Below are positions 49,766 through 63,139 of a stretch of 64,000 nt of DNA, one piece after another; within the stretch, counting starts at the first letter, position 1, and the number at the start of each line of letters is the position of its first letter. Below the pieces are notes generated by a model that searched no databases, was not told the DNA's origin, and saw nothing but the letters and a program-made list of their open reading frames with translations. The stretch comes from a bacterium. GTDB taxonomy: Bacteria; Armatimonadota; UBA5829. A program made the position numbers and the translations under genes. The DNA is taken from the NCBI GenBank assembly GCA_021371935.1, contig JAJFVF010000019.1, forward strand, positions 213,268-277,267, in the 5' to 3' direction.

Positions 49766-50203
49766 ATGGGTTTGGAACCACTTGATTCAAATATAGAAGA
49801 GACCTTGAAACGAATGGTCGTGCATGAGGGGGCTAGGGGAGTTCTCCAGAGACTGGGCTGCCGAGTGGGGCTTGTGCTATTTGCGGCTGCACGCCTGGTT
49901 ATTCCCGCTTTTCGCAAACAACCATGTTATTGGCGAGTCTGCCTGATATGGTGCACCCTCAACGAGGAACAAAGAACAGCTGTGCGGATCAATATATCTC
50001 TGGACGTAAGCAATATGCACTGCGTCTGCGGGCATATATGGCTGACAAAAGATGGAGAAGCAATAGGCGAGAAGAGGGATGCTTCGAGAAGGCCGTTGAA
50101 ACTGGTGGGGTCGTGCGGTCGTGTCGATTATTGGATCGATACGCCTGCTTGCAGCATCGATTACCGGCTGACCGATTTGTCTGAAGGCAGGTTCTTACAT
50201 TAA
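49766..50203 (+). CDS. lasso-peptide B2-like (transglutaminase-fold) leader peptidase
   Basis: 145 residues. The pattern matches the short bacterial transglutaminase-like domain found as protein B2 in lasso-peptide clusters. Cys54 (QPCYWRVCLIW) is at the nucleophile position. A strand VRINISLDVS follows, then His90 and Asp96 in GHIWLTKDGEAIGE, equivalent to the HAWVEVDG motif. B2 proteins cleave the leader from the precursor with help from a RiPP recognition protein. A PqqD-type protein is encoded at 52183. The stop TAA overlaps the next ATG. Sequence between the motifs is divergent, so the assignment rests on motif order plus context. Confidence 0.7.
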   Translation: MGLEPLDSNIEETLKRMVVHEGARGVLQRLGCRVGLVLFAAARLVIPAFRKQPCYWRVCLIWCTLNEEQRTAVRINISLDVSNMHCVCGHIWLTKDGEAIGEKRDASRRPLKLVGSCGRVDYWIDTPACSIDYRLTDLSEGRFLH

Positions 50204-51171
50204 TGGCAAACATATTTCTAACCCCCCATTGCGGTCGGAATTGCGCTTTCTGCTTTGCGAAAGAAGGCCCATGGTCGGATGAATATCAGGCGCGTGAACT
50301 GAGCCTGGATGAAGTCGAATGCATTCTGGAGACGGGCGACAGGTCTGTATGCACTGAATGCGGCTTCATAGGCGGAGAACCACTGACCTACAAAAACCTC
50401 TCCAAGGTCATCAGAATGTGTCTTGACAGAGGGATTCGTGCAAAGGTGTTCACCAGCGGCAGTTGCGTATGTCCCGAGGGTATGGACGAATTCGTCGGTG
50501 TCGAAAACCTGAGCTTCATTGTAAACGTCAGCCCACCTCACACATATGAAGAGACTCGAATGAAGAACCTTGATGCTTTTTTCAAAACATTTGGAGGAGC
50601 ATGCACACTGTCATATACTCTTTCGCCGTCACAGCCCGATGGACGATATTTGGTGGACTATATTCTCAAATATGGACTATCCAAGCATATCCGGGTGGGC
50701 ATCGCGGTCCCTATGATAGGCGGGGGAAATGAGCACGTTGCGCCAACCAAATTCAGGGAAGCTGCGCTGGCATTTATCGATCTTGCACGATATGCCGCAA
50801 GGTTCAATATATCTTTGGGCACGGACTGCGGGTTCGTGGCGTGTATGTTTACGGAGCGCGAGATCGGTGAACTGCAGTGGCTGGGAGCAAAACTCATATT
50901 CACATGCGGTCCTGTGATGGATATCGGTCCCGATTATGAAGTGTGGCACTGTTTCCCGCTGGCCAGGATAATGCGGGTCAAAATGGAAGACAACAAGATG
51001 CCGATTGGTGCTTTCAAAGACGCGGCACAGACCTTGAGGGAGCATTTCAGAGCAGGTGTCTTCGAGAGATGCTCAATATGCGACTTTCGCAGGAAAGGCA
51101 TATGCATGGGAGGGTGTTTGGGCCACATCATCCCGAGCGTCAATGAAGGAATCTCTGCTTTGTCCGGTTAG
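50203..51171 (+). CDS. radical-SAM RiPP maturase A
   Basis: 322 residues. The CxxxCxxC motif is at C10, C14, C17 (PHCGRNCAFCF), unusually close to the N-terminus, and the GGEP motif (FIGGEPLTY) follows. C-terminal cysteines include FTCGP, WHCFPL and CSICDFRRKGICMGGC, typical of a SPASM/twitch domain with auxiliary Fe-S clusters. It is co-linear with and similar to the next gene, suggesting duplication. It probably modifies the tyrosine-rich precursor by C-C, C-O or similar bond formation, as many SPASM enzymes do. Confidence 0.85.
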   Translation: MANIFLTPHCGRNCAFCFAKEGPWSDEYQARELSLDEVECILETGDRSVCTECGFIGGEPLTYKNLSKVIRMCLDRGIRAKVFTSGSCVCPEGMDEFVGVENLSFIVNVSPPHTYEETRMKNLDAFFKTFGGACTLSYTLSPSQPDGRYLVDYILKYGLSKHIRVGIAVPMIGGGNEHVAPTKFREAALAFIDLARYAARFNISLGTDCGFVACMFTEREIGELQWLGAKLIFTCGPVMDIGPDYEVWHCFPLARIMRVKMEDNKMPIGAFKDAAQTLREHFRAGVFERCSICDFRRKGICMGGCLGHIIPSVNEGISALSG

Positions 51172-51203: not shown

Positions 51204-52193
51204 ATGCCGAATTTGATCCTGACTACAAAATGCAATCTGGACTGCTCATATTGCTTTGGACGCGATGTGATGCAAAAGGGCGGCAACAAGATCGCCGACA
51301 TGTCGATGGAAATCTTCCATGAGCTGAAAGCATGGATAATCCGGGAACGTCAGAAGATCACAAGCGTACATCTGATGGGCGGTGAGCCGACACTAAACCA
51401 TAATCTCGTCGAAATGGCATGCTCTCTCCTTGATGAAGGCCTTGCTGTCTCAATCTTCTCTAACTGCTCAACGAGCGAAAGCCCCGTCTGCGCGCAGTGG
51501 CTCAAAGATAAAAATGTGACCTGGGTGGTGAATGTGAACCCACCCGAGTCAAGAACCGCCCAACAGGACAGCTTCCTGAGAGAATCACTCGAGACTCTGG
51601 GAGAGGCAGTGGTCATCACACTCAACATTCTCCCTCAGCAGATGGATTATGAATGGACGCTCGACCTGATTGCCCAGTATGGCCTGGCGAGGAAAATAAA
51701 GATCGGGTTTGTCCTGCCGACGCTCAGTAAGACGAATGAATATCTTTCGGATGAGGACTATCCGGTTGTCGCCGAACGTGTTGTCGAGTTCGCACGGCTT
51801 TGCAACAGGTTTGACGTGAAACTGGAGTATGAATGTGGAGTGCCCTGGTGTTCATTTACCACCGAGCAGCTCGGGGCGCTGTGGGCGTGCAATTCCTCAT
51901 TCTTTTCGTCATGTGATTCCCGGCTGGATATATTGCCCGACGGTCGTGTGATATACTGTCTGCCTCTGGCGGAGCTTTGCTCTGTGGCTTACAGTAATTT
52001 CTACTCATATAGAGAGGCAAAAAAATGGTTCGAGGGCAGCCTGTCTCCATACAGGCCGTTGGGCTCAAAAACTGAATGCCCGAGCTGCCGTTTGATGATT
52101 CAAGGACCATGCAGAGGCGGATGCCTAGCTCGCACGTTGTCGGGTGCGAAAAATATTGAAATAGGAGGCAGAACTATAAGCAATGTCTCATGA
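51204..52193 (+). CDS. radical-SAM RiPP maturase B
   Basis: 329 residues, a paralogue of the upstream enzyme. It has C10, C14, C17 (TKCNLDCSYCF), LMGGEPTLN, and the C-terminal cluster cysteines CSSFF-type region, YCLPLAELC and CPSCRLMIQGPCRGGC. GGGGGAGAG lies before the ATG. It ends inside the pqqD-like start (overlap of 11 bases), so the proteins are made in a fixed ratio. Two related SPASM enzymes in tandem suggest either a heterodimer or two successive modifications of the Tyr-rich core. Confidence 0.85.
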   Translation: MPNLILTTKCNLDCSYCFGRDVMQKGGNKIADMSMEIFHELKAWIIRERQKITSVHLMGGEPTLNHNLVEMACSLLDEGLAVSIFSNCSTSESPVCAQWLKDKNVTWVVNVNPPESRTAQQDSFLRESLETLGEAVVITLNILPQQMDYEWTLDLIAQYGLARKIKIGFVLPTLSKTNEYLSDEDYPVVAERVVEFARLCNRFDVKLEYECGVPWCSFTTEQLGALWACNSSFFSSCDSRLDILPDGRVIYCLPLAELCSVAYSNFYSYREAKKWFEGSLSPYRPLGSKTECPSCRLMIQGPCRGGCLARTLSGAKNIEIGGRTISNVS

Positions 52194-52449
52194 AGTTGCT
52201 CCAAATGCTACTTGGAAAGAACTGGACGGTTCCATCGTTGTTGTTAATACTGTTTCAGGAGCGTATTACTGCCTGAACGAAAGTGCCGCGGTGATCTGGC
52301 AGGATGTGGCCGCGGGCAAAGACAATAATTCCATTATCGAGCATTTGTCGGGGGTCTATGAAGTCGATCCGACAATGGTTGCAGCCGATCTGCAAAAATC
52401 AATCGACTATTGGATACAGGAAAACCTGATTGTCGCAAAAGATGCTTAA
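52183..52449 (+). CDS. PqqD-family RiPP recognition protein
   Basis: 88 residues. Typical PqqD features are a beta hairpin (ATWKELDGSIVVVNTVSGAYYCLNESAAVIW) followed by three helices (DVAAGKDNNSIIEHL; MVAADLQKSIDYWIQ). Such RRE domains bind the leader peptide and deliver it to the processing enzymes. In lasso clusters this role is protein B1, with B2 as the protease. The precursor gene starts 27 bases downstream, and its leader has the YxxP motif (YVSP) that RREs of this group recognise. Confidence 0.9.
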   Translation: MSHEVAPNATWKELDGSIVVVNTVSGAYYCLNESAAVIWQDVAAGKDNNSIIEHLSGVYEVDPTMVAADLQKSIDYWIQENLIVAKDA

Positions 52450-52476: not shown

Positions 52477-52620
52477 ATGGAGATTAACGAGGAAAGCAAG
52501 ACTGTAAAAAAGAAGTATGTCAGCCCTGAAACAGTCAAGCATGAGCCGCTTGACATTGTTCGCGGTTCCGGCAGCTATTCGAGCCTGTACTACACATATT
52601 ATTACTACTATTATTACTAG
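52477..52620 (+). CDS. tyrosine-rich RiPP precursor peptide (47 residues)
   Basis: ATG 52477 has AGGAGG six bases upstream, the best ribosome binding site in the locus. The leader is charged (MEINEESKTVKKK), then YVSPETVKHEPLDIVRG with a YxxP motif. After the linker SGS the C-terminal core is YSSLYYT followed by seven tyrosines: 10 of the last 14 residues are Tyr. Codons alternate TAT and TAC, so this is not a plain triplet expansion. The short length, strong ribosome binding site, leader-core layout, and position between a PqqD gene and a kinase gene identify it as the substrate. Cleavage after a Gly in RGSGS is a guess. Confidence 0.85.
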   Translation: MEINEESKTVKKKYVSPETVKHEPLDIVRGSGSYSSLYYTYYYYYYY

Positions 52621-52661
52621 CCCGTATTATGGAAACAGTTCAGTTTTACGGGAGCGAATAT

Positions 52662-52726
52662 GGCTCGGTGGGAACCTCGCCCTCCCGGCAAGCTCAATAT
52701 TGGGAGGGTGAAGCTCCTGCTGAGCC
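52662..52726. terminator. inverted pair of GC-rich repeats downstream of the precursor gene
   Basis: Copy 6 (52662-52688, GGCTCGGTGGGAACC...) and copy 7 (52702-52726, GGGAGGGTGAAGCTCC...) face each other. They form an imperfect stem of about 25 bp with a loop near AAGCTCAATAT. It begins 41 bases after the precursor stop and could act as a partial terminator or mRNA-stabilising hairpin, raising precursor over enzyme levels. Confidence 0.6.
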
Positions 52727-52754
52727 TAAAATTCCAGGGTAACTGAGCTTTCTC

Positions 52755-52820
52755 GTATTATGCGCTTTCCGCATAATACAGGTCTCCGAGAGCATTATTC
52801 ACGTTCCTTGTGAATAATGC
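52755..52820. repeat. twin-hairpin element, family A copy 3
   Basis: Hairpin 1: perfect GTATTATGCG stem, loop CTTTC. Hairpin 2: GCATTATTCAC stem, loop GTTCCTT. The linker AGGTCTCCGAGA is shared with the copies at 28669 and 44702. Confidence 0.85.
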
Positions 52821-52851
52821 GGGCTAGAGGGCAGAATGGCAGTGAGTATGT

Positions 52852-52910
52852 CCGCCATATGGCGGGCGGCTTGACAGTCGTTTGGTGATCGTGTGCAAAC
52901 ACGATCACCA
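52852..52910. repeat. palindrome and 12-bp hairpin before the kinase gene
   Basis: CCGCCATATGGCGG (52852-52865) and TGGTGATCGTGT with loop GCAA and a perfect complement (52883-52910). Possibly another twin-hairpin variant or a terminator. Confidence 0.6.
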
Positions 52911-52962
52911 TATTTGCTGGTACGTCAAAAGCGTATCCTACCACTTATTTTGTTGACAGACA

Positions 52963-53940
52963 ATGGTATACAATACTGCTGACCATACAATTGTGATGTG
53001 CCTTGCCGGCGGCAGGTTTCGGATCAGGACTTCATGTGCGCAGACCATGCAAACTCTCGAGAATATGTTCAGCTATCACAGCACTGATGATATCGCGGAG
53101 GCGGGTTTCGAGCATGAGGTATGCATACGTCATCGTCGTGTCGATCAGGACATAATCGATCTGCTGGATAACGCGAATGATCCATGGCTTGGACGGACGG
53201 CCATAGACATACCGGTTATGGCTGTAAGGGACTCCGATAAGGGCATTGCACTAAAAATTGGTGATGAAGCGTATTCATATACCGATATCGGACGGCACAA
53301 GACTGTATGCTATCTGAAGCCTGAGTGCAGCGGTGATGCATCGATATGCCCACAGCCGTGGGTCTATCTGCTGCCGATCTTGCAGGCTCTGCTGGCATTA
53401 TACGGCATTTATGTCATACACTCCGCTGCGGTGACATATGAAGACAAGGCTCTGCTGCTGCTCGGCGAGTCAGGCGCTGGAAAGACGACCATGTGCCTGG
53501 CTCTGGCGCGCGCAGGAATGGCTTATATGGGCGATGACCTCGTGGGGCTGCAGCGGCACGAAAATACGATTTATGCGCATGCCATCCTGCTCAGACCCAA
53601 GCTGGTTATAGATGAAAGCGGCGAAAAGTGCACGGTCGATGCGGTCGCCGATGAGAGACTTGCCTGCATGCGATTCGCTCCGGTGGGAGCGCTGGTCCAT
53701 CTGCAGCGAAGTGTGCCGGAGTTGAAGCAGACCGCGAGAATGCAGAGACCGCAAATGATGTCGCAGCTTTTGTCTATGGGCAATTCACCTGTGATGACGA
53801 ATGATATGAAGCAGTGGTTCGATACTGTTTTTGAACTGTCGCAGCAGGTGCCGGGATGGATATGGTCGCCTCCATTTCCTGATGCGGATAATATCGATGC
53901 AGTTTTCGGACACATGCGGAGGATGATGAATATTGCGTGA
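52963..53940 (+). CDS. HprK-like serine kinase of RiPP clusters
   Basis: 325 residues. The N-terminal domain of about 140 residues is not catalytic. The C-terminal half has IHSAAV (about 152-157), P-loop GESGAGKTT (168-176) and YMGDDLV with the catalytic Asp pair (191-192), as in HPr kinase/phosphorylase-like proteins of lasso-peptide clusters. Some of these phosphorylate a Ser on the precursor. Ser33, Ser35 and Ser36 near the core are possible targets here. No HPr gene is close. The next gene starts inside its 3' end. Confidence 0.8.
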   Translation: MVYNTADHTIVMCLAGGRFRIRTSCAQTMQTLENMFSYHSTDDIAEAGFEHEVCIRHRRVDQDIIDLLDNANDPWLGRTAIDIPVMAVRDSDKGIALKIGDEAYSYTDIGRHKTVCYLKPECSGDASICPQPWVYLLPILQALLALYGIYVIHSAAVTYEDKALLLLGESGAGKTTMCLALARAGMAYMGDDLVGLQRHENTIYAHAILLRPKLVIDESGEKCTVDAVADERLACMRFAPVGALVHLQRSVPELKQTARMQRPQMMSQLLSMGNSPVMTNDMKQWFDTVFELSQQVPGWIWSPPFPDADNIDAVFGHMRRMMNIA

Positions 53941-55342
53941 ACCCGGCCTGGCAGGGATATCGACACTTCTTGCGTCGAGAGATTGCGTCTTTCATAATGT
54001 CGGCATACAACAAGTTCTGGAGAACTTGCCATATTCTATCGCGCCGGCTATCGAATACCTCGCTCAGGCAGAAGCTGATATGGCATATAGGCTCATAGAC
54101 AGCATAAATAAATTCTGCCCGTATTTGCAGCGGCCATATTCGACCCAACAGGACATTTCCGGCAGGACATTTCCCATTTTCGATGATCTGCGCAGTGAAA
54201 TGGAACTGTTTCTTGCGGCTGTGCAAAATAAAATTTCTTATTGCAGCGCACATGAGCGGCATGTGTTGACCAAAAGGCTTGCCCGTTTCCTGGGGGTCAG
54301 GCAGGAGGTGCGTGAAATTGTCCGTGCTGCTGTGGGAGATGACGCCGCGGACGAGTTTGATGCAGCAGTGGCCTCAGAAGAGTCCAAAGCCATGGACCGG
54401 CAGTTGATGCTTTTCCTGTCATACAGGTGCAATCTGGATTGCCCGTATTGCTTTGCAAAGGGCAATCAGGGCGATATGCCGCTTGACATGGCTGTTGAAC
54501 TTATTGATTGGGCAAAAGAAAACGGCGCAACTGTCATAACTTTTCTGGGCGGCGAACCCACAATATATCCCCACTTCATTGATGTTTTACATGAGCTAAA
54601 ATGCAGGGGGCTATACACATTCTTTGCGACAAACCTGCTGGCTGAACCGGATGTGATCCATGCACTGGAAAAAGATTTCGTGCGCTCGCTGGTGGTTCAT
54701 GTCGCCCACAAAAATGTATACAAACCGGGACAGTGGGATATGTTGAATCGCAATCTCGCGGATGTGCTATCCAAGGGTTTGGCGGTTTCGCTGCGCGCGA
54801 ATGCGTATGCCCATGGGCACGACTGGTCGCACTTATTTGAGCTTACTGATAAATTCGGCGTAAAGGAAGTGCAGTATGCGCTTACGTTTCCCGGAGGAGA
54901 CGGCTCCAATGCGTTCGTAAAGAGGGATGACCTGGCCGCGATGATACCCGAAGTGATGGAGATGCAGCGGCTTTGTGATGAAAAAGGGCTGCACCTGATA
55001 ATAACAAAACCTCTGCCGCCATGCCTCTTCCCGCTACACATGCAAACGAGAATTGCCAGGCTTCACGAATATCAGATCTCATGTACGGCGCCATGCGACG
55101 GGTATTCCCACAACCTTTGCGTGCTGCCGGACGGTGGTTTTGTGCCATGTATGGCTATGCTGGATGTAAAATATCCAGCGACTGAGCCACATGATTACGA
55201 CCGGATTGCGGATTTCTGCAAATCTCAACTGCAGCCTTGGCTGGATAAGCCGCTGTTTGAGGATTGCGTGGGCTGCTTCCTTTTTGCAAGAAAAATCTGT
55301 CAGGGCAGCTGCATCGGGCATAAGCGGGAATTGGGTCTATGA
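53933..55342 (+). CDS. radical-SAM RiPP maturase C with N-terminal extension
   Basis: 469 residues. TTG start at 53933 with GGAGG eight bases upstream, overlapping the kinase stop. Residues 1 to about 150 are helical and unrecognised. The radical-SAM core has C166, C170, C173 (YRCNLDCPYCF) and FLGGEPTIY. The C-terminal cluster cysteines are CTAPC, CVLPDG/CMAM and CVGCFLFARKICQGSC, a SPASM-type set. The extension might bind the leader or another subunit. Stop overlaps the next ATG (ATGA). Confidence 0.83.
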   Translation: MREPGLAGISTLLASRDCVFHNVGIQQVLENLPYSIAPAIEYLAQAEADMAYRLIDSINKFCPYLQRPYSTQQDISGRTFPIFDDLRSEMELFLAAVQNKISYCSAHERHVLTKRLARFLGVRQEVREIVRAAVGDDAADEFDAAVASEESKAMDRQLMLFLSYRCNLDCPYCFAKGNQGDMPLDMAVELIDWAKENGATVITFLGGEPTIYPHFIDVLHELKCRGLYTFFATNLLAEPDVIHALEKDFVRSLVVHVAHKNVYKPGQWDMLNRNLADVLSKGLAVSLRANAYAHGHDWSHLFELTDKFGVKEVQYALTFPGGDGSNAFVKRDDLAAMIPEVMEMQRLCDEKGLHLIITKPLPPCLFPLHMQTRIARLHEYQISCTAPCDGYSHNLCVLPDGGFVPCMAMLDVKYPATEPHDYDRIADFCKSQLQPWLDKPLFEDCVGCFLFARKICQGSCIGHKRELGL

Positions 55343-56337
55343 GCTTATCCAATGTCGACTGGCGGCAGGTGCTTGGTCTGAGGGTCTCGCTGCCGAAGAA
55401 AATAGATATCGAGCCGACGAACACATGCAACCTTGCATGTCCGTTGTGCCCACAGTCTTCATCGCACACGCGAAAACGGGGTTTCATGACCTTGGAGACC
55501 TTTGGAAATGCGATTTCGAGCTTTGACGGACGGGTATCCGAGGTGTCTCTATATCTTCATGGAGAGCCGTTCCTGAACCCGGACCTGCCCAAATTTGTGA
55601 AGGCGCTCTCTGAAGCCGGCATACAAACCACTATAGCCACGAACGGCCTGGCGATAACCGATGAATGCTGGCGGGGCGTGCTCGATGAAGGAGTCAATGC
55701 CGTACGGTTTTCGATGGACCTGATAAGCCGGCAGGGGTTTCTGGCATATAAGGGTCTGGACTCATATGATGAAGCGCGCAGCAGGCTCGACGAACTGATC
55801 GAGATCAAACTGGGTCAGAAGTCTGATGCTCACCTGGGGATTCGCACCATATACAGTGGGCAGTCGCGTGAGGAACTGCTATCGTTCCTGGAATACTACT
55901 TCAAGAAGCCCGGAATAGACGATATCTGGTTTACGCGCCCATGCCCATGGCCTGGATCAAAAGACCCGGAGATGCTGGCGGGACGCCTGATGAAAGACAG
56001 GAAACAACCGTGCTCCATCGCCCGCGAGTCGATCAGTATCTGTTGGGACGGCAGCGTGGTGCCCTGCAGCTTCGATCATAATGCGGAGTATGTGTTGGGA
56101 AATGTCAATGATGCGCCGCTTGACGAGATCGTCAACTCGGAGGCTGCGCGCAGCTTCAGAAAACTGCATGCAAATGGCAGACGTGATAAAATACAGCCAT
56201 GTGCAGACTGTATGCTCCCAAGATTTTTCTTTCGGGAGATATCGCTGAACGGAGCGCTTTTCAACAAGGCAAATACTGCGCAGATGGATAATCTGTTTGG
56301 CCGTATAGAGGCGTTGATGCCCAAACTGGAGATTTGA
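55339..56337 (+). CDS. radical-SAM/SPASM protein D
   Basis: 332 residues. C30, C34, C37 (TNTCNLACPLC) and YLHGEPFLN in place of GGEP show the MoaA/PqqE-type branch. SPASM cysteines appear in KQPCSIARESISICWDGSVVPCSFDHNAEYVLGN and CADCMLPRFFF. It belongs to a different subgroup from maturases A-C. It overlaps the gene before and is one base from the ABC gene after, so it is part of the same operon. The exact modification is not predictable. Confidence 0.83.
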   Translation: MSLSNVDWRQVLGLRVSLPKKIDIEPTNTCNLACPLCPQSSSHTRKRGFMTLETFGNAISSFDGRVSEVSLYLHGEPFLNPDLPKFVKALSEAGIQTTIATNGLAITDECWRGVLDEGVNAVRFSMDLISRQGFLAYKGLDSYDEARSRLDELIEIKLGQKSDAHLGIRTIYSGQSREELLSFLEYYFKKPGIDDIWFTRPCPWPGSKDPEMLAGRLMKDRKQPCSIARESISICWDGSVVPCSFDHNAEYVLGNVNDAPLDEIVNSEAARSFRKLHANGRRDKIQPCADCMLPRFFFREISLNGALFNKANTAQMDNLFGRIEALMPKLEI

Positions 56338-56338
56338 T

Positions 56339-58120
56339 ATGGCAGGCACTCGAATTCCAATCGGCATACCCGGAAGACCGATAGAAGACGACCGGTCGAA
56401 GTCGCCTTCGATAGAGACCCGCGACCTGCTCAGATGGGCATGGAAACACTCGCGCTCGGAAGTGCCGCTGATTGTCCTCGGCATGATATTGGCGCTTATC
56501 ATATCGTCTCTGTCGGGGTTGGTGCTGATTAAAGCACGCGAGTTTATCGAAGTTGTCAGTTCGGGAGTGGGACCCAGACACGGCCTGAACCTGGCTGTCA
56601 TTCTGAGTGTTATATTTCTTGGGCGCTCGCTGCTGGGTATGGTGGCCACGATGCTGGGTTCCTTTGCATCGGCGAATATCCGTAAAAACCTGGAATGGGC
56701 ATGTCTCGACCACCTTTCGTTTCTTCCATATGAGAGAATGGCTTCCAAGTCCGGCGGGCTGGTTAGCGCTGCGCTTTTCAATGAAATCCCTATGATGGCG
56801 GATATCCCGGTAATGATTACCCGCTCGTTTGCCAGAGCGCCGTTCACCATACTGATACTGTGCATCATACTCTACAAGAACCTGCCTCTGATGGGAATAT
56901 TGGTCCTGCTGGCTACGCCTCTTGTTTTTATCGGGATGTCGACCCTGGCAAAAGCAGCGAAAAATGCAAGCGCACGGGCTCACGATGCGATTTCGCTTCT
57001 ATATGCGAGAATGAGCGAATATCTCGGAGGTATGCGGACGATTCGCACACTTGGTCTGATGGACTGGTATACACGAAAGCTGAAGGCGCTGTCAGTCGAG
57101 ATTGCGCAAAAGATGAAAAGGACCATCTTCGTTACCTCGCTGCAGGGAGCCGTCCAAGAGGGCATTTCGCTGATACTGTTGATGTTTGCTCTATGGTGGT
57201 GCGCGGTGTGTGTCAACATGGGCCTGATCTCACTAAGCAAAGCTCTGCTTATTCCTGTGGCGCTGATTATGATAAAGGATGAAGCCCTCGCGATATCTGG
57301 AGGCATTATCGGGCTGCGCAGGATCGAAGGTGCTGCCGCGCGTATACAAAACCTCCTTTCAGAACGGCAGTCTGGAAATGGACAATTGAACCCGAAAGAA
57401 CCGGTCGAAGAAGTGAGGCTGTGTAATATCACGTTTGGATATGAGGGCTGCGGGCTGATCCTTGAAGATGTGAACCTGGAACTGAGCTCAGGCGGTATCA
57501 CCGTGCTGCTTGGTGAAAGTGGTGCGGGCAAATCGACTCTGTGCGACATTGTGCTCGGGCTGCGGCAGGCGAAAAGCGGTGAGGTCAGATTTAATGGACA
57601 CCTGCTTCGGGAATTGTCTGAGGAATATGTGATGAGCCAGATCGCTCTCGTGGATCAACTGCCGTACCTCTTCGAGGGTACAGTGCGCGAAAACCTGCTT
57701 TTCGGAGATATGACTGCCACGGACAGCCGGGTCTGGGAAATGCTGGAAGCTGTGAGTTCCGCGAATTTCGTCTCTGAAATGGATGGAAAGCTGGATGCAC
57801 ATATTACCCCGATGGGGTCGAACCTGTCGATGGGGCAGAGACAGAGACTGGTGCTGGCGAGGTCACTGCTGCGCCAGCCGCATCTGCTTGTGCTCGACGA
57901 GTTTACCAGTGCTCTCGACCCGGCAAACGAGGATTCGATCATGGATACCATATCGAGTCTGAGCAAAGATATTATTGTGCTTTGCACTACGCATCGAATG
58001 TCTGTGGCACGCAGAGCTGCGCATGTATATTGTCTGAGGGAAGGGCAAATTTCAGCGGTACCATCAGATGATTTTGCGCTGTGGGCATATGGCCGGACAG
58101 GCCGCGCAGGGGAGCGTTGA
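56339..58120 (+). CDS. peptide-exporting ABC transporter (permease-ATPase fusion)
   Basis: 593 residues. An N-terminal membrane domain with about six helices (from residue 40 to 320; LIVLGMILALIISSLSGLVLI, FTILILCIILYKNL and others) is fused to the ATPase domain. Walker A is GESGAGKST (about 392-400), the signature is NLSMGQRQRLVLARSL and Walker B is LLVLDEFTSALD. There is no N-terminal C39 protease domain, so leader removal must be done by another enzyme such as the B2-like protein. Equivalent to protein D of lasso clusters. Probably exports the mature peptide and gives immunity. Confidence 0.88.
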   Translation: MAGTRIPIGIPGRPIEDDRSKSPSIETRDLLRWAWKHSRSEVPLIVLGMILALIISSLSGLVLIKAREFIEVVSSGVGPRHGLNLAVILSVIFLGRSLLGMVATMLGSFASANIRKNLEWACLDHLSFLPYERMASKSGGLVSAALFNEIPMMADIPVMITRSFARAPFTILILCIILYKNLPLMGILVLLATPLVFIGMSTLAKAAKNASARAHDAISLLYARMSEYLGGMRTIRTLGLMDWYTRKLKALSVEIAQKMKRTIFVTSLQGAVQEGISLILLMFALWWCAVCVNMGLISLSKALLIPVALIMIKDEALAISGGIIGLRRIEGAAARIQNLLSERQSGNGQLNPKEPVEEVRLCNITFGYEGCGLILEDVNLELSSGGITVLLGESGAGKSTLCDIVLGLRQAKSGEVRFNGHLLRELSEEYVMSQIALVDQLPYLFEGTVRENLLFGDMTATDSRVWEMLEAVSSANFVSEMDGKLDAHITPMGSNLSMGQRQRLVLARSLLRQPHLLVLDEFTSALDPANEDSIMDTISSLSKDIIVLCTTHRMSVARRAAHVYCLREGQISAVPSDDFALWAYGRTGRAGER

Positions 58121-58122
58121 GA

Positions 58123-59148
58123 GTGGCTGAGGGCGCTTTGATACATGAGGGGCTGAAGGCGTTTGTCGATGGACGTCGAGGACTCATCCCGGGCGATGGG
58201 GTTGACTGGCGAATATTACTTGATAAAGCATCGGCTATGCGCATCGGTCCGGTCCTGCTCGAAGTGTTCGATAATTCCATGCTGCCGCAGGAGGCACTGG
58301 ATCGATGGAAGAATGAGCGGCAGATCACTTTTGTCCGTTATGCCAGGGCTGCTCAGGCCGCTGCACGGCTGTCCGGCATTCTTGATGAATCAGGCATTGC
58401 GCATGTGTTCACGAGGGGGCTGGTCACCGCTCATACGCTTTATCACAACCCCGCATTGCGTATCATGACGGATGTCGACATGCTCATATCCAGACAGGAT
58501 GTCGACGGTTTTCAAGAGTGCCTGACAAGACACGATATTCACCCCGAAAAGCTGCTGCGCAGTCAGATAGTGTACTCTATCGACGGTATGGTCTTTGAGG
58601 TGCACTGGTCACTGACCAGCATCAAACGGTTCAAATCGGTTGGGCTGACAGACGCTTTTATGAATGTGCGCATGCCTATGGATACGGAATACGGCCGAAT
58701 CCGGCGACTGCCGAACGGAGCAGAGCTGAGCATTGCGCTGGCGCACAGTTTTCTGCATCATGACATGGAAGAACCGCGTCAGCTTCTCGATATTGCCCTG
58801 CTCATGTCCTCTGAAGAAACCGACTGGCGATGGCTTGGCGAATGGAGCCGGAAAGTAGGTTTTGCGCGTGCAACAGGATTTATTCTTCAGTTTGTGAATA
58901 AAAGCTTTGGCCTTGAGCTGGATGATACTCTGCGGCGTGAGTTTTCCGAATCGACCGTGCCTGCCGAAAGAGTGTTCCAGGCCTATTACTGTGCACTTTT
59001 TGAGGAAGAATATCTGAGCCATTATCTGATAAAACAAGCCAATTTGGTCACCATGTCTGAGACGATGGGGGACAAAATGCGTCAGATAATCAGAAACTTT
59101 TCATCGGACCGCATCAGGCTGCTGGGCAAATTTGTCAGGAAATCGTAG
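58123..59148 (+). CDS. nucleotidyltransferase-fold protein (PF14907-type) of RiPP clusters
   Basis: 341 residues from GTG 58123, with GGGAG nine bases upstream; TTG 58117 overlaps the ABC stop. The sequence HTLYHNPALRIMTDVDMLI (the D-x-D of the nucleotidyltransferase fold) and FEVHWSL, then LAHSFLHHDMEEPRQLLDIALLM, are characteristic of the uncharacterised nucleotidyltransferase family common in lasso and other RiPP clusters. It may transfer a nucleotide or nucleotidyl group to the peptide. It ends 14 bases inside the converging radical-SAM gene. Confidence 0.8.
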   Translation: MAEGALIHEGLKAFVDGRRGLIPGDGVDWRILLDKASAMRIGPVLLEVFDNSMLPQEALDRWKNERQITFVRYARAAQAAARLSGILDESGIAHVFTRGLVTAHTLYHNPALRIMTDVDMLISRQDVDGFQECLTRHDIHPEKLLRSQIVYSIDGMVFEVHWSLTSIKRFKSVGLTDAFMNVRMPMDTEYGRIRRLPNGAELSIALAHSFLHHDMEEPRQLLDIALLMSSEETDWRWLGEWSRKVGFARATGFILQFVNKSFGLELDDTLRREFSESTVPAERVFQAYYCALFEEEYLSHYLIKQANLVTMSETMGDKMRQIIRNFSSDRIRLLGKFVRKS

Positions 59149-60046
59149 ACTCATCCACACGGTGGCCGGGCGCGCGAATCGAATGCTTGCCGCTGAGCAG
59201 GATCGTCTCCATGTCGGCTATTTTGTTAATTTCGTCCGCATACTTGTGCTCAAGCACCGGCTCGAGATATGTCCGACCAAGTTCTTCTTCCATACCACAG
59301 CACACCCTGCTGAAAACGCATTTGCCGCACGATTCACCAATTGCCGGAACGACCTGCCTGTCATATATCTCCTGGCAGTGATACTCCAGCCCTCCGACCA
59401 CGCAAAAAGGAAATCCGCTCAATACAGGCCATATCCCGGCGTCTAAAAGCTTGGGTATACAAGCCCCTATAGCGGATATGGAATCGCGATAGTCAGCATT
59501 GCCCGCATATTTATATACAACTCGATCCGGCCTGTATTTGATTATCTCCTTTGTGATTGCGCTGACATGCTCTATATTGCCGCCAAAGACCGGCACGCTC
59601 AGAAACAAAAACAGTTCATTGATCTGGAAACCGCGTGGTCTGACCTGCTTTATCGACCGAATCGCGCGGCAGGCATCACTATATGCGCCGCTTCTTCCGG
59701 CAATATCGTCGTGTGTTTTGGCGTCCGGGCCCAAAATATCGATCTCATATAGAAGTATGCCGGCATGCACAAGCTCCATCAGACGGTCGTTCTGGAGAAG
59801 AGGCGTGCCGGTCGTCTTCAGCTTGACTCTGCGAAGTCCCCATATGGAGGCCGTCTTCAACGCCTTGATGACGTGGGGTGAGCCTGCCGCGTCACCCTCG
59901 CCGAAATACAGGTTGCATGGTGGACGGGTATCGTTAATTTCGGAGACGATTGACGTCAGGTCGATATATTTGCCCCCACGCTGAGAGCAAAATTCGCAGT
60001 TGTTGGGACAGACTGCCCCTGTGTGGATGAAGTCGTATTTGTTCAT
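59135..60046 (-). CDS. radical-SAM enzyme E (convergent with the RiPP operon)
   Basis: 303 residues. C13, C17, C20 (AVCPNNCEFCSQRGG) and a GEG motif (YFGEGDAAG) in place of GGEP. The end has ESCGKCVFSRVCCGMEEELG, a short extra cysteine cluster. It lies on the opposite strand but overlaps the last RiPP gene. It forms a two-gene unit with the gene at 60060, separated by 13 bases. Membership in the RiPP system is possible but not shown. Confidence 0.75.
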   Translation of the reverse strand: MNKYDFIHTGAVCPNNCEFCSQRGGKYIDLTSIVSEINDTRPPCNLYFGEGDAAGSPHVIKALKTASIWGLRRVKLKTTGTPLLQNDRLMELVHAGILLYEIDILGPDAKTHDDIAGRSGAYSDACRAIRSIKQVRPRGFQINELFLFLSVPVFGGNIEHVSAITKEIIKYRPDRVVYKYAGNADYRDSISAIGACIPKLLDAGIWPVLSGFPFCVVGGLEYHCQEIYDRQVVPAIGESCGKCVFSRVCCGMEEELGRTYLEPVLEHKYADEINKIADMETILLSGKHSIRAPGHRVDESTIS

Positions 60047-60059
60047 AGGTTCTCGATTG

Positions 60060-61406
60060 TCAGGTCATTGCGGTCGCGCCGTGTTCTTTGGTGATCGTTT
60101 CGGCAAAGACTTTTGCCATGGCAAGCTCGGCTTCGCTGAAAGTGTCATTTTTCAACACGAAATACGGCGGATCCTGCATATAAGTTATGCCTAGACGTGC
60201 GGCATCGGTGCGTAACTGGGTGCCGTTGAGCACACACAGCAAATTGATAAAGAGCTTGTCGACATTGAGCGAATATACGAAGCGAACCCCTTCGAGAAAC
60301 GAGAAAAAGTTGTCACCCGCAAGCCCCAGCAGCAAATATACGCTCACATGTTTGTTGAGAGCCTGCAGAAGTCTGACACCGTTGATAAAGCGGTCACGCA
60401 CAAATGTGCGGTTAATTGCTGTAAGCGCTGACGGGTTGATGCTCTGCAAGCCAACGTCGAATAGAGTGAAATGCTTCAGCAGGCCGACATTCTTATCATT
60501 GATAAGCTCTGCATATATCTCCACGGAACACGTGTACTTTCCGCAGCCTGCCACATGTTTCGAGAGAATATTACTGATCTGCTCGAGCCGTGAGATATCG
60601 TTGTTGCCGACAATCGGGTCGAGGAAATGGAAATGTCTGACGCCGTTTTTCACTGCATCTGCTATCTCTTTTTCGACCCTCGAAATGGAAAAATAGCGGA
60701 CGCCAGCATATTTTTTGCCCTCAAAACAAAAAGTGCATCTGAAACGGCACCCTCTGGATGTCTCGATCATGATTCCCAGGTGATTGTGCTTGCCTATCCT
60801 GATCTCATGAGCAAGATATGGTGAGGGTATCGAGTCGAGATTGTCGATGAGCATACCGGGTGGATTGGATACTTGCCTGTCACCTTTACGAAACGAAATT
60901 GCCGGGATGTCATCCAAGCTCGACATATCGTCAAATATATAAGACCGGAGCAGGCGTCGAAAAGTCTCTTCTCCTTCTCCATCCACGCAGATATCGACTT
61001 CGGGATGTTCTTTGAGGTAATCGATCTCTGAGTTCGTGATCTCCTGGCCGCCGATGATGACAACGACTTTTGGCAGAAGCCGTTTAAGGATTCGTATCGT
61101 CTCCAGCGTGCGCCGGATGTTCCATATGTTGCATGAAAAGCCTGCGATGCTCGGTCTGGTGAGAGCAATCCTCAATGCGGCAAGCACGGGACTTATGCGG
61201 ACTCCCATCTCGATTATGTTTATGTTCAGTCTGTCTCTGAGGTCCGGGTCCTGCAAGGCATATAACTTTAGGTAATACAGCGCCAGGGCATAGTTTCTTT
61301 CGATATTCAGAGAAATCAACGCTATTCTTGCCCGTTTGAGCGTGGTGTCTGACAATTCGTTCACCCATCGTTGCAACTTACCACTTGTAAACTGTATACC
61401 GATCAA
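60060..61406 (-). CDS. B12-binding-type radical-SAM enzyme F
   Basis: 448 residues; TTG start 61406, or GTG 61364 (VNELSDTTLKRARIALISLN) with equal likelihood. The N-terminal Rossmann-like domain has the order of B12-binding domains (PKVVVIIGGQEITNSEIDYLKEHPEVDICVDGEGEETF), but the DxHxxG cobalamin motif is not visible. The radical-SAM core has C220, C224, C227 (SRGCRFRCTFCFEG). Class-B enzymes of this kind methylate or rearrange unactivated carbons. It is upstream of and co-transcribed with the gene at 59135. Confidence 0.8.
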   Translation of the reverse strand: MIGIQFTSGKLQRWVNELSDTTLKRARIALISLNIERNYALALYYLKLYALQDPDLRDRLNINIIEMGVRISPVLAALRIALTRPSIAGFSCNIWNIRRTLETIRILKRLLPKVVVIIGGQEITNSEIDYLKEHPEVDICVDGEGEETFRRLLRSYIFDDMSSLDDIPAISFRKGDRQVSNPPGMLIDNLDSIPSPYLAHEIRIGKHNHLGIMIETSRGCRFRCTFCFEGKKYAGVRYFSISRVEKEIADAVKNGVRHFHFLDPIVGNNDISRLEQISNILSKHVAGCGKYTCSVEIYAELINDKNVGLLKHFTLFDVGLQSINPSALTAINRTFVRDRFINGVRLLQALNKHVSVYLLLGLAGDNFFSFLEGVRFVYSLNVDKLFINLLCVLNGTQLRTDAARLGITYMQDPPYFVLKNDTFSEAELAMAKVFAETITKEHGATAMT

Positions 61407-61951: not shown

Positions 61952-63139
61952 TTAACGAGTTGAATTATCGCTCAAAACCTGCATCACCTCGTCTGCAAAA
62001 CGCCCGCTTCTAATCAGTTCTGCCATAATGCGCATGGGCTTTTCAGTGTGGCTGAAAAATGCTTTCAGTCCTTCGCATAAATAGTTGATGCCTGAATCGG
62101 AGATGCGGTTCTTCGGGCATTCGCCATAACAAGTAAACAGATACTTGCACTCGCGGCAGTATTCAGGCAGGGCATTGAACTTGGCCGAGCCGAACCACCT
62201 CTGCCTTTCACCAAGGACCAGTTGGTCGATAGGCGTCTCGGTGATATTGCCAAGCAAGTGCTCCGGCTCGACGAAATGATCGCACGAGTACACGTCGCCG
62301 TTGTGCTCCAGCACGACACTGTCACCGCAGGTTGGACGCAATACACACAGTGTCGAATATCCTCGAACCCAGGACGCAAGCACACCATCGAAGAAAATTA
62401 CAAACATCTTTCCCACGTCTCTGCGCACCCACTCGTCGAATATCTCGATGAGAAACCGGCCGTATTGTGCTGGATGCACCGACCTGTCGGTGACGCGGTC
62501 TCCATCCTGGAATCCGGTATCATTGTCCCTTTCGACAATAGGAATAAACTGCAGATATGGCGCTTGAAGTTCGTCCCGAAAGAATTTGTAGACTTCCAGT
62601 GGATGCATGCTGTTCACTGCGTTGACTGTGCAGAGGATGTTGAATTGCACATCGTGTGTCCGCATAAGTTTTGCCGCCCGAATCACACGGTCATAAACAG
62701 AATTGCCCGAACGGTCTCTACGATAAGCATCATGAAGCTTCTTGGGACCATCAAGACTAAGACCCACCAGGAAGTTGTTCTCGCGCAGAAAAGAGCACCA
62801 TTGCTCATCAATCAGAACTCCATTGGTCTGCATGGTATTTTCAACTTGCATCCCAGGCTTGAGATATCTTTTCTCCACCTCAATCGCACGCTTGAAGAAA
62901 TCCAAGCCCATCATGGTCGGCTCACCACCCTGCCATGCAATGGTTACTGCAGGAGCGTTATGCGCCTCGATTGTCTGGCGGATGTAGGTCTCCATCACTT
63001 CATCCGTCATTCTCAGTGTGCTCCCTGGATAAAGCCCGGCTTTTTTGAGAAAGAAGCAGTAGTCGCAGCGGAGGTTGCAGTCCGCTCCGGTCGGCTTTGC
63101 CATTACGTGAAACGAGCTAAGTGTGTCTGGACGTTTCAT
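61952..63139 (-). CDS. anaerobic sulfatase-maturating enzyme (anSME)
   Basis: 395 residues, normal size. C21, C25, C28 (ADCNLRCDYCFFLKK), WQGGEPTMMG and QTNGVLIDEQW are anSME signatures. The SPASM domain has CVLRPTCGDS, YSCDHFVEP, LPEYCRECKYLFTCYGECPKNR. It converts Cys or Ser in sulfatases to formylglycine without oxygen. No sulfatase gene is in the window, but the lyase, GH42 and beta-helix genes show polysaccharide use, so sulfated substrates are plausible. Overlaps the marC stop. Confidence 0.92.
   Translation of the reverse strand: MKRPDTLSSFHVMAKPTGADCNLRCDYCFFLKKAGLYPGSTLRMTDEVMETYIRQTIEAHNAPAVTIAWQGGEPTMMGLDFFKRAIEVEKRYLKPGMQVENTMQTNGVLIDEQWCSFLRENNFLVGLSLDGPKKLHDAYRRDRSGNSVYDRVIRAAKLMRTHDVQFNILCTVNAVNSMHPLEVYKFFRDELQAPYLQFIPIVERDNDTGFQDGDRVTDRSVHPAQYGRFLIEIFDEWVRRDVGKMFVIFFDGVLASWVRGYSTLCVLRPTCGDSVVLEHNGDVYSCDHFVEPEHLLGNITETPIDQLVLGERQRWFGSAKFNALPEYCRECKYLFTCYGECPKNRISDSGINYLCEGLKAFFSHTEKPMRIMAELIRSGRFADEVMQVLSDNSTR

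Follow-up and report, generated by a model that had tools for sequence, protein, structure and literature searches.

A tyrosine-rich candidate RiPP precursor family encoded with four radical SAM enzymes and lasso-type genes in Armatimonadota and Bacteroidales

One described lasso peptide cluster specifies a leader with a YxxPxL motif, its Tyr lying at position -17, together with kinase, B1, B2, N and ABC genes (PMC10368454), and the kinases that tailor lasso peptides carry a catalytic His-Lys-Asp-Asp set (PMC9266682). Among radical SAM systems, TvgB iteratively modifies the repeat core of its precursor TvgA (PMC9062424), and other SPASM enzymes make Tyr-Asp, Tyr-Arg and Phe-Ser cyclophanes (PMC11002830).

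In this study, we analyzed a 64-kb stretch of DNA from a member of the phylum Armatimonadota, referred to here as the window, which contains a small gene, D, encoding a 47-residue peptide with a core dominated by tyrosine. Taken as a whole, the findings are best explained if D is the precursor of a RiPP family matured by the enzymes of the surrounding cluster, a reading we regard as probable. No model in NCBIfam or Pfam fits the precursors, and the open-access literature searched yielded no comparable Tyr-rich RiPP made by radical SAM enzymes, subscription papers lying outside the search; the main text of a survey of Bacteroidales RiPPs (PMC10352776) makes no mention of tyrosine. Within those limits, the result agrees with an earlier sequence-only reading of this DNA, which knew of no described RiPP class with such a core. 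The D family is thus apparently an undescribed family within the radical SAM RiPPs, and whether it also constitutes a new chemical class depends on its product. To that reading, the present analysis adds the split machinery resembling lasso B1/B2, the pairing of a kinase with a nucleotidyltransferase, and an LYY(T/S)x repeat in the cores of homologous precursors.

The precursor gene and its family

Gene D (52477..52620, + strand) comprises 47 codons and translates as MEINEESKTVKKKYVSPETVKHEPLDIVRGSGSYSSLYYTYYYYYYY. Its charged leader (approximately residues 1-30) contains YVSP and is followed by a Gly-Ser linker and the core (approximately residues 31-47), in which 10 of the last 14 residues, including the final seven, are Tyr. 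Position, size, YxxP leader, linker and Tyr count, all read directly from the sequence, are as first described. A strong Shine-Dalgarno sequence precedes the start codon (AAAAGGAGGAAAGGG-ATG); this much of the earlier description of the ribosome binding site stands, while its ranking as the best in the locus is a by-eye judgement only.

Given that Tyr makes up 2.7% of the neighbouring proteins, at least 10 Tyr in 14 residues would arise by chance with p ~2e-13, and the run in D is the sole (TAY)5+ run on either strand of the window. A (TAY)5 run followed by a stop occurs in 9 of 291 genomes of the phylum, the eight besides that of D being not gene-like, and searches of the phylum and of viral contigs with (TAY)n-stop patterns otherwise returned only non-genic or unrelated runs. 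Tyr is encoded by six TAT and five TAC codons in D and by 58 TAT and 67 TAC codons across the precursor family. Codon mixing had been taken from the outset to make slippage unlikely; with the mixing now counted in both D and its family, and with small homologous ORFs occupying the equivalent position in 11 Bacteroidales genomes, a slippage origin of the Tyr run is rejected. The leader is under purifying selection, with a pooled pN/pS of 0.27 calculated from non-independent pairs with pS near saturation.

The gap between D and the downstream kinase gene folds very strongly at 52640-52960 (z -8.8). Most of it is made up of dispersed palindromic repeats from two families, one of ~110 bp and the other of ~75 bp, for which the genome contains at least 40 matches, and the Bacteroidales loci have no such gap between D and E. 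Being made of dispersed genomic repeats, the stretch 52621-52962 was dropped as a candidate dedicated attenuator.

Homologous loci were sought with a profile of relatives of radical SAM enzymes A and B against one genome per species, which recovered 11 Bacteroidales genomes of gut type whose B proteins are 43-47% identical to that of the window. A single-sequence contig search with radical SAM enzyme F gave no match, whereas the alignment-based search succeeded. In all 11 loci, a small ORF with the conserved leader and a Tyr-rich core lies between the PqqD and HPr-kinase-like genes, as exemplified by the precursors of L147 (MTQKVYKKPATTKHASMDLVQGSGLYYTTLYYTYYYYY) and L141 (MIIMSKTYEKPLTKRHESKNIVQGSLYYTSLYYSSLYYSGLYYYY). 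The sequence-only reading had proposed looking for homologous leaders beside the same PqqD and radical SAM genes, and had named homologous loci devoid of a Tyr-rich ORF as the outcome that would count against it; the leaders were found in the 11 Bacteroidales genomes, and none of the loci lacks the ORF. Among 1324 ORFs of 30-75 aa in these loci, at least seven Tyr among the final 20 residues were counted in eight, each of which was the syntenic ORF; the same control in 69 other loci yielded one of 6049 ORFs, an antisense frame.

The family leader follows the consensus YxxPxTx[KR]H...V[QR]GS, and an alignment of 12 precursors shows invariant Y14, P17, T19, H22, V28, G30, S31, L37 and Y44. The cores are built of LYY(T/S)x units, with Tyr accounting for 113 of the 255 residues in the 12 cores, from all of which Ala, Asp, Ile, Met, Pro and Gln are absent. 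C-termini vary (YYYY, RY, YYH, WH and YK), and each genome carries one precursor copy. The pure Tyr run of the window peptide is therefore an extreme member of the family and not its type. The family is rare: in 393 genomes sampled from the order of L141, a precursor profile matched only the two members already recovered, in 298 genomes of another order it matched only the precursor of L159 itself, and viral contigs gave no match.

The biosynthetic genes and their relatives

Within the window, the genes are arranged in the order J-A-B-C-D-E-F-G-H-I, all on the + strand, and the cluster is conserved across Armatimonadota and Bacteroidota at the level of individual genes. A, B, C, E and G are present in all 11 Bacteroidales loci, F in 10 (it was not found in L151) and H in seven (by tblastn); J is recognisable in 10, the L148 locus being cut, and I follows the ABC gene in all three loci examined (L141, L144 and L148). 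Gene order otherwise matches that of the window except in L146 and L147, where B is displaced further downstream.

Four genes encode radical SAM enzymes. A (50203..51171, +; PF04055), whose orthologues in the 11 loci are 33-38% identical, has eight invariant auxiliary-cluster Cys: the CxxxCxxC motif and C209, C214, C235, C250, C290, C293, C301 and C305, 11 Cys in total, are invariant across 12 sequences. B (51204..52193, +), the best conserved protein of the cluster, has SPASM-type cysteines, with invariant C237-x9-G-x4-C252 and C292xxC295x7C303x3C307; these fit the SPASM pattern C-x9-15-G-x4-C...CxxC-x5-C-x3-C except that x7 replaces x5. An AlphaFold2 model of B (mean pLDDT 78.5, weak around residues 287-303) is predicted to lie nearest in fold to SuiB and anSME (Z 19.8 and 19.1; top match, VIA, rmsd 3.3 over 282 aligned residues), and this modelled match says peptide maturase fold and nothing further. 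F (53933..55342, +; PF04055) has an extra N-terminal region of ~150 aa, seven further conserved Cys at auxiliary-cluster positions, and a weak near-full-length match to ScmF over its radical SAM part. G (55339..56337, +; PF04055, PF13186) has four further conserved Cys and is the only one of the four in which Pfam detects SPASM. The Cys of A and F agree with the SPASM pattern in position, with spacing compared in part. Because the auxiliary Cys are invariant or near-invariant in all four enzymes, A, B, F and G likely bear auxiliary clusters, which accords with the initial description of the adjacent genes as SPASM enzymes.

Recognition, processing, decoration and export functions can be proposed for the remaining genes. 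C (52183..52449, +) encodes a PqqD-family, lasso-B1-like leader-recognition protein (RRE; PF05402, 1.3e-10), whose best NCBIfam match is the lasso PqqD model NF033530 (5e-10, under its cut-off). J (49766..50203, +), whose start codon is uncertain and whose stop codon runs into the start of A, encodes a short lasso-B2-like (transglutaminase-like, C96-type) putative leader peptidase. An alignment of 11 sequences shows invariant Cys54, His90 (in GH[AI]W) and Trp92, and the homologues combine the invariant Cys with GHAW[VL]TR[ND]G. The B2 assignment comes from relatives of the window protein: PF13471 (Transglut_core3) is matched by 4 of 11 members (best 3.6e-6) and NF033537 (lasso_biosyn_B2) by two (best 1.9e-5), while window J itself matches neither. 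J is short for a peptidase, its catalytic-triad Asp is not invariant, and a fold search with its model gave a best Z of 4.5, which shows neither relation nor novelty. Matches to PF13471 in related genomes are mostly large unrelated proteins.

E (52963..53940, +; HprK-related families) encodes an HPr-kinase-like peptide kinase in which H153, GxSGxGK174 and G190-D191-D192 are invariant in 12 sequences, as in the catalytic set of lasso-tailoring kinases. H (56339..58120, +; PF00664, PF00005) is an ABC exporter with membrane and ATPase domains, in which no C39 peptidase domain was found, and I (58081..59148, +; PF14907, 5.7e-32) encodes an NTP_transf_5 nucleotidyltransferase-like protein.

Downstream, at 59135-61406 (-) and 61952-63139 (-), three more radical SAM genes face the cluster, one of them with a B12-binding domain. 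A 32% relative of this B12-type enzyme adjoins NTP_transf_5, HprK-like and B-like genes in L154. The B12-type enzyme of the window may be part of an extended set; its conservation does not extend to the Bacteroidales clusters.

A tree of the A/B family placed the 12 LYY-A rows in a single clade (support 99) and the 12 LYY-B rows in another (support 100). LYY-A groups with a Tat clade (support 94, in a rapidly built tree, some branches of which are long); in this Tat clade, 9 of 11 loci encode an adjacent protein with a Tyr-rich or Tyr-containing tail, nearly always with a Tat-type signal. Recurring tail Tyr is strong in L191 (33 Tyr in 105 aa), L174, L185, L173, L168 and L188, and weak in L162, L172 and L192. 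Since the nearest relatives of A adjoin unrelated secreted proteins with Tyr-rich tails, gene neighbourhood ties the A lineage to Tyr independently of the window peptide. This link of one radical SAM lineage to Tyr-rich substrates in several unrelated contexts makes its Tyr chemistry directly testable. The Tyr-tail proteins themselves seem to form a radical SAM substrate class of their own, so far undescribed.

The strong Tyr-rich-tail proteins are encoded at L191:12606-12923, L174:12014-12265, L185:8495-8971, L173:8523-8957, L168:8555-8992 and L188:2948-3394. Tail repeats of proteins adjacent to A-type genes, which span several phyla and mostly carry a Tat-type signal, include NYTNYT and YYNYYN. 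In L003, L010, L011, L152, L153, L156, L161, L165-L167, L169, L180 and L219, from Chloroflexota, Armatimonadota, Acidobacteriota and others, B-family radical SAM genes are accompanied by proteins whose Cys-rich tails end in HYW[YH]PN or a close variant; in the fully read loci, these are WD40 repeat proteins. Relatives of B within the phylum (G016 and G283) were set aside as part of a different system, one with WD40 proteins ending in HYW[YH]PN. Separately, the precursors at L159:3879-4058, ending NQYYY, and L155:2642-2794, ending STYYH, adjoin HprK-like, B-like and F-like genes, and L159 also has a confirmed PqqD gene; L159 and L155 are probable sister RiPP systems.

Proposed maturation and competing explanations

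The locus encodes a leader-core precursor beside modifying-enzyme genes, as expected of a RiPP, and the original proposal of a RiPP precursor is strengthened by 11 homologues in which the leader and the Tyr-rich core are kept and the PqqD, kinase and radical SAM genes again lie alongside. It is very likely that D undergoes RiPP maturation by the cluster enzymes, and we have good, somewhat lesser, confidence that Tyr is the residue modified.

Judging from the protein families, C would bind the YxxP part of the leader and present the core, whose tyrosines A, B, F and G would modify repeatedly. E, perhaps followed by I, may then place a phosphate or a further group on a core hydroxyl. If Tyr14 corresponds to position -17, the core would start at Ser31, behind the invariant Gly30; J would accordingly remove the leader between these two residues by lasso spacing, and H would export the product. 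Because the C-terminal residue of D is not Ser, the kinase target would differ from that of most lasso peptides.

As to the radical step, the Tyr crosslinks or Tyr oxidation suggested in the sequence-only reading are plausible. Our guess is a C-C (or C-O) side-chain crosslink, most likely one that joins a Tyr ring carbon to the residue two positions on in a triceptide-like reaction at Tyr-x-Ser/Thr/Tyr. Repeated cyclophane formation by such Tyr(i)-to-residue(i+2) crosslinks is the leading candidate, though we rate it slightly less likely than not. Of 97 residues at i+2 from a Tyr, 75 are Ser, Thr or Tyr, a share that composition alone nearly gives, so in cores made mostly of Tyr, Ser and Thr this frequency is weak evidence for an aromatic-x-x motif. 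The pure Tyr run of the window, devoid of the (T/S)x positions of the repeat, counts against the i+2 reading, and we know of no precedent for Tyr at i+2 as a crosslink acceptor. Radical SAM enzymes also catalyse epimerisation, decarboxylation, methylation and thioether formation, and the sequence does not tell which reaction applies. More speculatively still, the system may represent a lasso chassis in which the cyclase has been swapped for four radical SAM enzymes, yielding a multiply stapled Tyr ladder that is phosphorylated or capped and secreted, while elsewhere, in other phyla, enzymes of this lineage would staple the Tyr-rich tails that secreted proteins carry.

The alternative that survives best, though we consider it unlikely, is that the tyrosines are oxidised or decarboxylated to a quinone or redox product resembling PQQ or mycofactocin, or are coupled Tyr to Tyr, with the C-terminal aromatics as the main site. 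PQQ and mycofactocin likewise rely on PqqD-type recognition and a SPASM enzyme acting on Tyr. Moreover, L159 and L155 have few Tyr yet end in YYY or YYH beside B-, E- and F-like enzymes, and because terminal YY is kept in these Tyr-poor precursors it is the more widely shared element. The C-termini within the D family are nevertheless variable, none of the four radical SAM enzymes comes near the mycofactocin or PqqE cut-offs, and an exporter, a kinase and a nucleotidyltransferase are more in keeping with a decorated peptide for secretion than with a cofactor.

Considerably less probable is a scheme in which the core is modified mainly through (poly)phosphorylation of its Tyr, Ser or Thr residues by E, I transferring a group and the radical SAM enzymes having another target. 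E does possess all catalytic residues of the lasso kinases, and BsfK phosphorylates an internal residue, Ser3, instead of the C-terminus (PMC10368454). Against this, all four radical SAM genes are conserved with the precursor across two phyla, and Tyr-rich proteins occur beside close relatives of A at loci where no such kinase is conserved.

That D is a lasso peptide with its cyclase encoded elsewhere and the radical SAM enzymes serving as extra tailoring is highly improbable. The YxxP leader and the B1-like, B2-like, kinase, nucleotidyltransferase and ABC genes are those of phosphorylated lasso clusters; yet the nearest Asn-synthase-like match lies ~140 kb away in the genome, none occurs in the homologous clusters, the window core has neither Asp nor Glu, and the 12 cores together hold no Asp and only two Glu. 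Because the core has no acceptor Asp or Glu, an isopeptide bond is impossible, and the missing acceptor refutes the lasso reading in practice.

Finally, although the Tyr run is of low complexity and similar runs exist outside genes in the phylum, the idea of a low-complexity accident or chance ORF is rejected with near certainty on the mixed codons, the strong ribosome binding site, the selected leader and the homologues found in synteny in 11 genomes from a second phylum.

Comparison with known systems

The candidate RiPP family shares most of its parts with the phosphorylated lasso peptides, including paeninodin, pseudomycoidin and the bsf cluster: a YxxP leader, a PqqD-like B1, a His-Lys-Asp-Asp kinase, a nucleotidyltransferase and an ABC exporter are common to both, and the putative peptidase J may correspond to B2. 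The pairing of YxxP with a B1-like RRE is present, with Tyr and Pro invariant in 12 sequences and Thr in place of the Leu of YxxPxL. In contrast to those systems, the present one combines a Tyr-rich repeat core with four radical SAM enzymes, the B2-like J is much shorter, and Gln or Arg occupies the Thr(-2) position. No Asn-synthetase-like macrolactam synthetase was found in the cluster, and the window core has no acceptor Asp or Glu at position 7-9. The parts are lasso-type, but the product is not a lasso peptide; recognition and processing genes of the lasso type without a lasso cyclase bear on module exchange among RiPPs.

Triceptide systems (YxdB, YhhB and MscB) likewise use SPASM radical SAM enzymes, some of which act on Tyr-x-x motifs. 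A SPASM-type enzyme adjoins the precursor here as well, and aromatic-x-x motifs are present in the core, if weakly evidenced. The triceptides differ in their leaders and enzyme families, usually have one such enzyme, and have no reported tandem LYY(T/S)x core or lasso-type processing genes (see also PMC11002830). TvgA and TvgB, which give poly-cyclopropylglycine, resemble the D family in having a repeat core with one repeated radical SAM modification, but their repeats are TVGG, the chemistry is on Val, and PqqD, kinase and B2 genes are absent.

The SynChlorMet and HPr-rel-A cassettes of NCBIfam bring HprK-like, PqqD-like and radical SAM/SPASM proteins together as here, while scores against their models reach 14.9-30.1 bits against cut-offs of 35-400. 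PQQ and mycofactocin share the PqqD-type recognition, SPASM enzyme and precursor Tyr, yet each is a cofactor derived from one modified residue pair, with no repeat core, kinase or comparable exporter; the best scores here were 36.2 of the 381 bits set for PqqE and 32.2 of the 265 bits set for mycofactocin. Set beside these systems, the locus offers a defined precursor family, whose simple repeated unit lends itself readily to assay, and four conserved radical SAM enzymes for a type of core that we did not find described.
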